A program made the translations under genes and the position numbers. The notes beneath the pieces were generated by a model. The model was given only the letters and a program-made list of their open reading frames with translations, was not told the DNA's origin and did no database searches. Shown in pieces: positions 9,001 to 21,000 of a stretch of 64,000 nt of DNA (its first letter is position 1; each line of letters starts with the position of its first letter). The stretch is from assembly GCA_037074765.1 (NCBI GenBank), contig JBAMDO010000147.1, positions 62,001-126,000 of the forward strand, in the 5' to 3' direction. The DNA comes from Mansonella perstans. Its lineage: Eukaryota; Nematoda; Chromadorea; Rhabditida; Onchocercidae.

Positions 9001-12000
9001 TCTCCTTCTAGGACGATGTAATGTGTAATTTTTGAGGCCTAGTATGTAGGCTATTTTACATTGGCAGTAAATCGATGTAAAAGTATTTAGCTCTGATGAA
9101 TTGGTCTGTGATACAAGTTTAACCACTCTTTATGAAAGAGAGATTATGTGTAAGCTATTTTGAAAAGAGCAGGAATTAGGAGGGTATTAAGGAGAGGAAC
9201 TATTAAAGTATTTGTTGTGCAAGTTTCAAAATTGAAATGAATTTTTCCATCTGTAATCACTAGGACAGCAGCAATGTGTAAATTAATATAATCCCCTTTT
9301 GTAGTAACATATGATTATCTTTTTGCCCTACCTTTTCTAAAAGATCATCATCTGTTTTTCGTAATGCAGACATTTGGGTATCTTATCTTATTGTACACAT
9401 CTCGCTCGTTAAATGGCATTATTGGGTCTACTTTGGTACCTTGCTGTTACCTAAGTCCTATAAAATTCCTATCATTTTAGATAAAATAAGTGGGAGGATT
9501 GGTTTTGCTCTTTTGAAAGATTTGAAATGACTCTTCCTTATTTCTCTTGGCATTCGAATATTGGAGAGGTAGAGGGGAGGAGATTTGCGACGAACATTTA
9601 AAAAAACTCATAAAAGTAAGTAATTTTGACAGTTAGTAATTTAGTTTAATTTTGATTATCATAAGGAAATTTAATAAAATGTCAAAAGTTTCATTCAGTT
9701 GAGAGTTCGGATTGTCGCTAACAAATTCATAATGATCCTTAATGATTTTTCATCGAACTAGTTTCATTCTATACTTGCTTGCTACATTTAAACTAACTGC
9801 AGAAAAAATTTTTAAACTAACTAATTTAGCTATTTAAACTAATTTTAGCTCGTTAGGATCGGGTTTATAAGATAATCCCGAGTGTTTTGTCCAAAGATGT
9901 TTTATTTTTGCGCTCTAAATTGATTCCCATGAATTGGAAACGGATGCTCGCAATGAGAAATATAATCAGCAGCAGTAAATTACCTGTTTTCTCTGTTCCT
10001 TACCTGACATTTATAGACAGATTGACATGAATGTTTGGTAAATTTATTTAGCAGACATCTGCTTCTATATGTTACTCTGCTAGCAGATTCTCTTTTCAAA
10101 GTAATTTTTGACAAGTGATCAATTATTTAAAATTGCAATTCAAAATGACCAAACTGCAGAAAATATTAATAGCAAGTGAGACTGTGCCACTATGTGGATA
10201 ATATATCTCAAGCCTTTCGTTTTTGTTCATTATATTTCTTCAATGGCATCAAAGTTTTCAAATTAATATCCATAATTCGTCTTTTTCAAACAAAAGCTAT
10301 TGTTTAGTCATCTATTCTATTCAAGAACCTCAAAGCATGCTGTAGTTTTTTGATGATAGTTGATCTTAAGAATATTGTTTATTAGACAAGGCCCGTTGCC
10401 TTATATTGCTTTTCATGATAGATATTCATTTAATTTTCAACTTATGTGAAAGAATGAATATTGATGTGACTTCAAAGATGGAGATGGAGACATATTTATC
10501 CTTAACGGATAGTAGTAAATTGAGAATCAATCAATCTGTTGCAAAAATCAGCATCTCGAATCTTCAATTAATTTACGATATTGCTTGATGATATCATTTA
10601 ATGATGTTAAATAGTTTGAAATGGGGACATTTTCAGAGAAAACAACTTATGGAACTTCAGCAAAATTGATTGCGCCAGGTATTGTTGTACCGGGAACTCT
10701 TTCCGTAACGAATTATGAACTGTTTTTTGATGCGGACGAGGATGACCCACTGTACAAGGAGCAGGATCCCAAGGTACCTTCTTTTTGCTAATTGTTTAAG
10801 TTGAAACTTTAAGTTTCACAAGTATCTGTAGATTATTGCAAAACTAGAATCATTAGCATATCATCATAATTAAGAGCCAACATGTCATTTTCACTTTTTT
10901 ATTCATCAGGCTATCCTAATCTGTGCTTTCGAAGAGAGTCAAATATGTTATAAATTTGTTGTTTATAAATTTAAATGAATTGAAGATTTTGCTTTTAAGC
11001 AATCTTTAAAGGTAAAGCAAATTTTACATTAATTGTTTATAATGGTAAAGTGGTATGGTAAAAACGGTGTATGATAATAGAGATCATATTATGCTTAAGT
11101 AGTACAAGCTATATATTCGTGGTATAAGCTATATATTTCAAGGAAATTTTAATGATGAAACAGTGGATATTATTAAGCAATCATCGGTTCATTTCAATTG
11201 AGCAGTATGATCACAGCAATATTTAATTACAAAATAAACTTATCTGCAACTACTAATATTCAAATTAAATACTATGAAAGTATGCACACATGCACAAACA
11301 CACGTACAGGAATTTTGTTTTGAGCATTAAAAATTTAGTGAAATAGTCCGGAAGATGGCCTATTTATAATTGAGCAAATTTGAAACAGTTTAGGAGCAAT
11401 AGGGAAGGATAGCAAGATTTTACGAAAACTGAAATTTGAATTTCCTTGTAGAAAATTGAAATTTCTTGTAAAAAATTTTTGACGTTTTCTATCTTTTTTA
11501 ACGGCAGAAATATAGAAATATTTAATGGTGGGAAATTCTTATTAAAATTTTTGGTTAAATGCGAAAAGAAGTTAGAGAGGATTTGCTAGGATTATAACGA
11601 TTCAAGAGCGCGTACATTGAGAATCAGTTGTCGAACAAGATTCCAAGTAATCTTTGCGCTTTGATCGAGAAGATGTGCAGGCTCTCCTTTGAGAAGGTCC
11701 AATTGAGGCAAGAAATAATGCGGACATTTTCGGCACTGTAAACAGGATACCAGTTGTAATAGCACACCTGAAGTAAATAGGTCCAAATAGATCAATAATA
11801 ATGTCTCTGATGTTAAATTTAAGTGAATAGATGATGTTTCCGGACTTTATTCTTGAATTTTTTATTCGGTTTCCAGTTCTAATTGTCTTCTATATAGTGA
11901 TGATGACAAAAAAATCAATATTGAATTTGAAAAAATAGAATTAGGCCATATATAAAATGAATATTTTCTTTTGCAACTCGGACCAAACAAAACCGTTTTT

Positions 12001-18000: not shown

Positions 18001-21000
18001 TCGAAAAAGTGAATTGTCTACTTTTACATGGATTTTCGAAGTTTCACTCATGAATTTGAATACTAATTTAAATATCGCTCAAAATTATTTGCACCCAATG
18101 AATCTAATATTTTACTGCAAAATATTGTTAAAAAGTTCCTCCATGAAAATTTAGTAGTGTGGTGAAACTAAGAGGAGGAAAGAGGAAAATGTTGATAAAT
18201 TCGGACATAGTGAATTGTCTACTTTTGCCTTTTGCAATATATAGAGTTTCGAAATTTCACTCATGAATTTGAATACTACTTCTACAACCAATTAGTGAAG
18301 AATGGGTACTGAAGTTTGTTTTACTTTTAAACACTTGCTGAAGTAGCGACTTGGATGATATGGTTGCTGATCACATTATTTTCAATTTGTTGTATTGCTC
18401 TGCTGTGTCACTCACTATTCATAAATCACGTTTGCGACGTATCATAAAAGGTCATAAAAGGCGACACTCAGTCATAAAAGCGAATAGTGAATAAAAATGT
18501 GAACGCAATTTAATTGAAAAAGAACTGATGTATATTTATTTTTGTTAGAATAAAGGCATTGAATATAGCTGCGAGAAAGATAAGCAAACTTTCAGGATAA
18601 AGTAAAATGAAGATAATGGATTTTTTAGTTCGAATTTTTTAGGTTTATTATGATTCTGTCCTTTTTTCTCATAGTTTTTTAAATGTCCAAAATTAATGCG
18701 ACATTTGATCACCAGCACACTGACAGCGTTGGCAAAGTAAGAAAGGAAACAGTGCGGTGATGTAAATGGCTGCCAAATGATTGAAAAAGAGGCTATTGAA
18801 ATAGGTATAATTATTCAATTGGATTGTTGCCTGACTGCGAGAGTACATCTTGAGCATTATTATGTATTAAAGGGGAAATGTGTATATATATATATATATA
18901 ATATGAAATATTATTTTAGACTGACCTACCTGTATGTATGCTTCAGTAATTTTCCGGTCATTACTCGTATTCAATTATCGGGCCATGAACGGAGAGAGAA
19001 ATTGATATGATAATTGCTGTAACTGATGATGGGAGTGGGTGAGGTTGTTCGGCTTAGATCATTGATCTCTCAGCACACCTGACTGAACAACTCAGAAACA
19101 CATGGCATCCCAGATCACTCTTATTATCAACGTAGAGATCGAACGAACTCTTTTCTGAAATATAATTGCTTTAAATCATTCAGATACCAATCCGTTCTTC
19201 TTTGTTGTATGGGTTTTTTATGAGCTATTAGCACAAAGTGAGCCAGTTATTACAAAGTGATATAGTGTAGTAATTGACTTGAAGTAATGAACTGAAAAAC
19301 AAAGTTAAAGTGCTGTTAGTGAAATCCTAAGTGGATTGATGATTGAATGGAACTAAAGTATAATTGATTTATCTAAGCTTTATTTATCCTGTCATCTGCT
19401 GCTAAGTTGATGGAAAGTGGCTAGAACCTAGCTACTATAAATTAAATTAGCTACTATAAATACTATAAATTTTTTCTCGAGTTTCAGTTTGTTTACTTTG
19501 CTCTCTATTTAATCAGTTTATATTCAGTTCGTTCATTAATTTAATTAACTAGCTTGGCAGCTTAGCATTGTTGATGCATTTGCAAATAACTCAAAGAGCC
19601 AGAAGATTTCCTGCCTTTGTCCGTACTACTTTTTTATCCACTAGTCGAGTGGATCAGTTCCAGTTATCAAGCCTTCCTACTACTCAATAAACTTTTCCTG
19701 AAATATCGAGAATCTCATGAAACTCATGGTATTTTATCGCCACTTACTTGGCGCTCATTAAACTTTCTCTAAACATCGAGAGTCTCATGAAACTCATGGT
19801 ATTTTATCGCCACCTGTCCTTCCTTTTACCGTAATCCAGATGTGGCCGCATATATGTGTGTATGTGATTGTATTTATGTATGAGTGTGTATATGTGCGCA
19901 TATATGACTGCTCGAATTTGTCTCATCAGATCAGATCTCATCAGATCCTCCTTCTCATCAGATCTTCCTCCCATTTATATTTCATGCTGATTAAACATAC
20001 TTTTAATCAGAACTGATTTGTTTTTGAATTTTGTTAAATGACTGATAATGAAAATGAAATGATTCAAATGTCAGTCAGTAGGTGAAGAGGAGGAAGAAGG
20101 ACAAAACATAGATATTTAGAATGAAAGCGATGAAGAAGTTAACAAACAAATGGCAAATATAGTTGAAATATCTTCAATGACATCTACTATTAGTCACATT
20201 TCATTCCATCATCAGACAATCATCAAATGAATTGTTGTTGGCTTATCAGAATTTCAGTTTCACTCATACATATAATCATCTCTTTATTGTACATTGGAAT
20301 TCATTGTGCCCTTAATTTGATAGGCCTAATTTTTCATTTCTTTCTCTCTTGACAGAAATTTAATCGAATTAGTTAGTGACCATTTGCATCCTTTCGATCT
20401 TTCAAACTAATTAATTAAAATTGTCGCTAATTTACAGATTTTATTATACTGCGATAATTTGCATGGACGATGGCATTTTCACGAGATACGTGCTATTTTC
20501 TTACGTCGTTACTTACTCAAAAATATCGCACTGGAACTGTTCCTCGCTTCAAGAAGTAAGTTACAATATCCTGTTAACAATTTAATACCTATACTACAGT
20601 ACTGTTGCAATTTTCCATCACTTTTTTCATTTTTAGCCGCCATTATGTTTGCATTTACGGATGAAAATACAGTGCGAAAAGTGGTGGACTATTTGCCCCG
20701 GGTTGGTGTCGGTGCTAAATATGGTTTGCCGCAAAGTCGCAAAGCAAGTTTGATGACTCCGCGACAACTTTTCAAGCATTCTGATATGCCACAAAAATGG
20801 CAACGACGGGAAATTTCGAATTTTGATTACTTGATGTTCCTGAATACTGTTGCTGGTCGAACATACAACGATTTGAATCAGTATCCTATTTTCCCTTGGG
20901 TTTTAGCTAATTATACATCGCCAACGTTGGATCTCAACATTGCATCGAATTTCCGGGACCTGTCGAAGGTGAAGATTTCGATTTTCTTCTTTAATGTTTT

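Follow-up and report, generated by a model that had tools for sequence, protein, structure and literature searches.

The window analysed here, a stretch of 64,000 nucleotides of Mansonella perstans DNA (contig JBAMDO010000147.1, positions 62,001 to 126,000), contains a complete mab-21 gene nested in antisense orientation in one large intron of a neurobeachin gene. Both genes, their nesting and relative orientation, and an intron position and phase that match those of human genes were established. We conclude with considerable confidence that this is an orthologous, anciently inherited mab-21/neurobeachin nested pair. It provides a clean case of two apparently unrelated genes staying together through a large part of animal evolution, and one origin is supported by the agreement of the host intron at codon level. 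The analysis also indicates that the neurobeachin records available for filarial worms, and for other animals as well, may be half-proteins made by annotation, which matters for counting or naming BEACH proteins.

The window holds most of one plus-strand neurobeachin gene, with exons located between positions 95 and 26253, as mapped by tblastn with nematode neurobeachins. The start of the gene was placed at about −2750 relative to the window (contig position 59250), and its extent on the contig at 59250 to 88253; these borders are those of tblastn matches, the very 5′ end of the gene lying outside the mapped part. The host exons upstream of the large intron occupy positions 95 to 8675 (tblastn borders) and are followed by exon A (10637–10773, 137 bp), which encodes the first part of the PH domain. 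The large intron (10774–20437, 9,664 bp, GT-AG, phase 0) starts with a donor GT at position 10774, after the residues EQDPK of the PH domain, while its acceptor AG ends at 20437. Exon B (20438–20555, 118 bp) encodes the second part of the PH domain, and exon C (20637–20968, 332 bp) encodes the end of the PH domain and the start of the BEACH domain, ending with NFRDLSK. The two exons amount to 450 bp, or 150 codons. The remaining host exons, coding for the rest of the BEACH domain and the WD40 region up to the C-terminus, are found at 21675–26253 (tblastn borders). The 9,664-bp intron is the longest of the mapped host gene; the next one, near 8676–10636, is about 1.96 kb long, as judged by tblastn borders.

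The host gene was identified by similarity as the neurobeachin/LRBA orthologue (sel-2/rugose/LRBA/NBEA). The exons flanking the large intron could be aligned without gaps to LRBA (1t77, E 1.5e-85) and to neurobeachin (1mi1, E 1.2e-84), and host exons matched Pfam PH_BEACH and Beach. The downstream half of the host was 89, 89, 87, and 78% identical to sequences of A. viteae, C. johnstoni, L. sigmodontis, and Thelazia, respectively. An exon-by-exon search of the genome, in which the best candidates were considered, pointed to two more places with PH_BEACH, on contigs C84 and C149. These were inspected by eye for signs that the intron position is older than the BEACH gene families; C84 seemingly starts elsewhere, and C149 about one residue off. 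No tRNA genes were found in the window, and no Rfam match in the window reached the gathering score.

The mab-21 gene model built from the sequence is complete and consists of four exons on the minus strand, running from 15389 to 11592 and coding for 364 amino acids followed by a stop codon. Exon 1 (15192–15389) carries the start codon at position 15389, exons 2 and 3 occupy 13903–14382 and 12487–12727, and exon 4 (11592–11767) includes the stop codon. All three introns are of the GT-AG type, the donor of the second (GTCTGC) being atypical. Two Pfam domains, Mab-21 (133 bits) and Mab-21_C (84 bits), were recognised in the product, and a portion of exon 2 was by itself sufficient to match MAB21L1 in PDB (5eog, E 1.1e-73). 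A public mab-21 record from a filarial worm, P0001, is equally long and shares 356 of the 364 residues. On the strength of these similarities, the nested gene was judged to be the mab-21 orthologue, and a whole-genome search conducted exon by exon, with only the best candidates considered, located Mab-21 (PF03281) at this place only. The whole gene lies inside the single host intron, on the opposite strand. The claim of the earlier note that mab-21 is nested antisense in a neurobeachin intron was thus confirmed by a four-exon minus-strand gene located within 10774–20437. The gene is surrounded by ca. 5 kb of host intron DNA on its 5′ side and 0.8 kb on its 3′ side. The 5′ segment (15390–20437, minus strand with respect to mab-21), in which simple repeats are present, is the likely site of the mab-21 promoter and enhancers.

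In the gapless alignment, the host junction falls after chain residue 46 of both 1t77 (LRBA) and 1mi1 (NBEA). Residue n of 1t77 corresponds to residue 2075+n of LRBA, with LRBA R2139 being chain R64 and Y2288 being chain Y213. R2139 (c.6415) is assigned to LRBA exon 42 (PMC7952427), while Y2288 is given in a report where exon 46 was amplified to confirm c.6862delT (PMC5022363). Since the 1t77 numbering is anchored by these two residues, the nematode junction follows LRBA K2121. The loss of LRBA exons 36–41 is reported as c.5646_6363del (PMC8072023). This implies that codon 2121 is the last of LRBA exon 41, that the intron behind it is in phase 0, and that the exon border is at c.6363/6364. A literature search for LRBA splice-variant names of the c.6363+ or c.6364− type produced no match.

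For NBEA, the residue and cDNA numbering that we assume places the junction at K2195, and hence predicts an intron after c.6585. A human NBEA record contains 751 residues beyond the junction; with a full length of NBEA that we take to be 2946, subtraction again places the junction at K2195. The prediction of an intron after c.6585 was made from the alignment and the assumed numbering before a published variant was known to us. This variant, c.6585+2958G>C, is listed in a table of PMC12110342, and its name implies that an intron begins after c.6585. As regards the position of the intron, the prediction that the earlier note had drawn from the PH domain therefore held, with codon and phase matching for both LRBA (K2121) and NBEA (K2195). 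Thus, the nematode, LRBA, and NBEA introns have a common codon and phase, the human side of the comparison coming from variant names and, for NBEA, in part from the assumed numbering.

The distance between the junction and the end of FRDLSK is 150 residues in the window, in 1t77, and in 1mi1, and, of 53 database records in which both marks could be located, 51 show the same spacing. Four LRBA exons are reported to be removed by a deletion situated 19.38 kb upstream of MAB21L2, with an in-frame loss of 150 amino acids from parts of the PH domain and the BEACH domain (PMC11511899). Given the 150 codons from the junction to FRDLSK, LRBA exons 42–45 (c.6364–6813, with c.6862 in exon 46) would fit this published deletion near MAB21L2. 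In NBEA (58 exons), a breakpoint in intron 41 is reported to put PDK3 upstream of MAB21L1 (PMC10557686). The NBEA variant described above lies nearly 3 kb into the intron, and the presence of MAB21L1 there may be the reason why it was captured. It is therefore suggested that LRBA intron 41 contains MAB21L2 and that the NBEA intron beginning after c.6585 contains MAB21L1; our literature searches retrieved no explicit statement of either location and no publication specifying which LRBA intron hosts MAB21L2.

The nesting that we observe is real but already published, nematodes included, and a claim of novelty for it fails. Tsang et al. (2009) reportedly call Mab21 and Lrba/Nbea a conserved nested pair in metazoans, to judge by their title and by papers citing them; these are the same two genes, nested, and we know of no difference, as far as the title and the citing passages go. 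In 2007, the MAB21L1/L2 family, named D6 within DANGER, was reported to lie inside NBEA and LRBA introns, with synteny conserved in every metazoan taxon of that study but D. melanogaster (PMC1784063). N. vectensis is named among the species of that work, and nesting that includes N. vectensis would place the origin before Bilateria. The D6 nesting in neurobeachin is the same as in the window. In the same source, ecdysozoan D6 coding sequences are described as having introns, whereas those of vertebrates and Nematostella are described as intronless; the mab-21 gene studied here has three introns. Elsewhere, the arrangement is said to be kept throughout metazoans, some insects excepted (PMC3786989).

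In nematodes, the largest intron of sel-2 is described as hosting mab-21 in every clade, based on 20 genomes that include those of B. malayi, D. immitis, L. loa, O. volvulus, and C. elegans (PMC4994411). This is the same nesting as in the window, presented in the relevant passages of that source without a codon-position comparison to vertebrates. Given nesting throughout nematodes, the window shows the usual nematode state. According to the same source, gene structures seem non-overlapping in some nematode lineages, in part through assembly problems, while in Pristionchus nesting was truly lost and mab-21 is outside the intron. Nesting is therefore not indispensable, as shown by the reported cases of Pristionchus and Drosophila. 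The earlier note had held that the two genes are apart in C. elegans and that M. perstans would stand out as a lineage in which the ancestral arrangement was preserved; both statements are contradicted by what PMC4994411 reports, the former by the presence of C. elegans in its genome set and the latter by nesting in all nematode clades. As for the proposed origin in the bilaterian ancestor, inheritance stands, while the age was probably understated, N. vectensis being one of the species named in PMC1784063. Inheritance is now supported more strongly than it was from the sequence alone.

Ancient inheritance would imply that in an early animal mab-21 came to be located antisense in a neurobeachin intron, at a fixed codon boundary of the PH domain (after LRBA K2121/NBEA K2195), and that the nesting was then retained in most of the lineages examined in print. 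A separate entry of mab-21 into a neurobeachin intron in nematodes and in vertebrates is very improbable. Nested genes do move, as evidenced by the un-nested mab-21 of Pristionchus and by the high turnover of antisense pairs (PMC4994411). Yet separate insertions are at odds with the identical codon and intron phase found here and in both human paralogues, with the opposite-strand orientation found here, and with nesting in all taxa of PMC1784063 other than the fruit fly. The preference of the earlier note for inheritance over independent insertion is thus upheld by the codon and phase shared with both human paralogues and by the published nesting, and a single origin is far likelier. The chance that an assembly error fused two loci is next to negligible. 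While wrong joins are conceivable in principle in a genome consisting of 539 contigs, we found no positive support for one. Against it, the locus is deep within a single contig of 264,469 bp, neurobeachin records of four other filarial species end 9–12 residues past the same residue, as the same long intron predicts, and the nesting is reported for other assemblies (PMC4994411).

What keeps the two genes together is a separate matter. By extension from vertebrate work, we consider it somewhat probable that the pair is held because mab-21 control elements are situated in host introns. Relocation of mab-21, or disruption of the host gene, would then be selected against, without any need for mutual regulation of the two transcripts. 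In Xenopus, targeting of the CE14 element in an lrba intron is reported to have reduced mab21l2 RNA, with lrba RNA unaffected (PMC11511899). Other findings, all from PMC4994411, speak against it: expression of antisense genes and their hosts was uncorrelated in P. pacificus, a comparison of C. elegans with P. pacificus showed few conserved non-coding sequences, and blocks of this kind could, according to that source, result simply from a large host gene being conserved. The vertebrate evidence favours control elements, and the nematode evidence is weaker.

The pair could also be equally old and its members unlinked in function, with the long intron of a constrained host simply keeping its content. 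Such passive retention, which we regard as unlikely, shares ancient inheritance with the preferred explanation and differs from it only in what maintains the pair. It agrees with the nematode results (PMC4994411), in which hosts are conserved and have long introns, in addition to the uncorrelated expression and the scarcity of non-coding conservation mentioned above. On the other hand, a mab21l2 control element inside a vertebrate lrba intron (PMC11511899) speaks against it, as does the broad conservation of mab-21/sel-2 among nematode antisense pairs that are mostly lineage-specific (PMC4994411). Retention through mab-21 control elements in the host introns remains the explanation that we prefer.

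The large intron coincides with the ends of many neurobeachin records. Records of B. malayi, C. johnstoni, W. bancrofti, and A. viteae stop 9–12 residues past KEQDPK. In three of the four, the tail starts with V, as would be expected from read-through of the GT donor; the A. viteae tail does not. The D. immitis record P0222 stops one exon earlier. Among 120 neurobeachin records listed, 115 covered both sides of the junction, the four filarial ones covered the upstream side only, and one covered neither. In a second listing (the best 120 of 2,514), for which the query began at the junction and candidates were limited to 0.55–1.75 times the query length, 47 records covered both sides, 55 the downstream side only, and 18 neither at the cut-off used. 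Among these best 120, 50 of the 55 downstream-only records start between 12 residues after and 45 residues before the junction, the other five start 71–272 residues before it, and the 47 two-sided records start 52–593 residues before it. Judging by record names, the 50 come from nematodes, insects, a springtail, spiders, ostracods, a tardigrade, an annelid, molluscs, sea urchins, a tunicate, fish, and a bird. Several records of the second listing are labelled partial by their source, and this junction alone was examined, so the spike of start positions reflects where models begin among these records rather than the share of animals affected.

Annotation thus seems to break neurobeachin repeatedly at this intron. 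The breaks may be caused by the nesting; breaks in insect records speak against nesting as the only cause. Insects being the group with reported losses of nesting, intron length by itself may suffice. A broader reading, which we offer tentatively and hold to be slightly less probable than its negation, is that the host intron is a frozen site, its codon and phase kept across bilaterians, that it is long because of mab-21 and the associated control DNA, and that the nested gene makes automatic annotation split neurobeachin there into two false genes in many unrelated animals. Without recourse to DNA, the position of the break in protein databases could then mark the intron, and perhaps also the nesting.

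Some further observations on the linkage of the two genes come from database record listings, from which examples were chosen by eye and not as a full count. Against linkage, the two genes are on separate, short contigs in Thelazia and Enterobius and on contigs of unequal size in Aphelenchoides besseyi; in Steinernema carpocapsae, their locus tags are 645 apart, with the contigs equal-sized. In Brugia, Auanema, C. bovis, C. auriculariae, Mesorhabditis belari, Darwinula, and Ceratosolen, mab-21 and neurobeachin are on contigs of equal size. Consecutive locus tags for the two genes were seen in Haemonchus contortus, Kerria lacca, and Pristionchus mayeri, the last belonging to a genus reported to have lost the nesting.

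The neurobeachin records of four filarial species, B. malayi, C. johnstoni, W. bancrofti, and A. viteae (P0140, P0141, P0142, and P0143), lack the BEACH and WD40 parts because they end 9–12 residues beyond the residue at the donor of the host intron (window position 10774), and are apparently split neurobeachin gene models. Records covering only the downstream part were drawn from the best 120 of 2,514 matches to a query starting at the junction. Among the 55 such records, 50 begin between 45 residues before and 12 residues after the junction (window position 20438), and several animal phyla are represented among those beginning near it. 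In another PH_BEACH gene of the same genome (L005, contig C149, near 130363, minus strand), a possible exon start, judged by eye, is offset by roughly one residue from the corresponding point of the PH domain. The position of the host intron in the PH domain may thus predate the divergence of the BEACH families.

Simple repeats with ACACAT, ATG, and ACT units are present in the mab-21 introns and directly 5' of mab-21 (13390–13477, 14734–14793, and 15537–15758). About 0.6 kb separates the last neurobeachin exon from a downstream 39-bp tandem array (26828–27842; 26.4 copies, 95% matches), several frames of which are open.

Further along the window, a minus-strand open frame (33963–34499) gave WD40-type matches under the family cut-offs; its text may resemble WDR7/rabconnectin. 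A weak, below cut-off RNase_PH match (E 4.7e-4) was found on the plus strand at 41968–42366, which is perhaps an exon of an exosome subunit.
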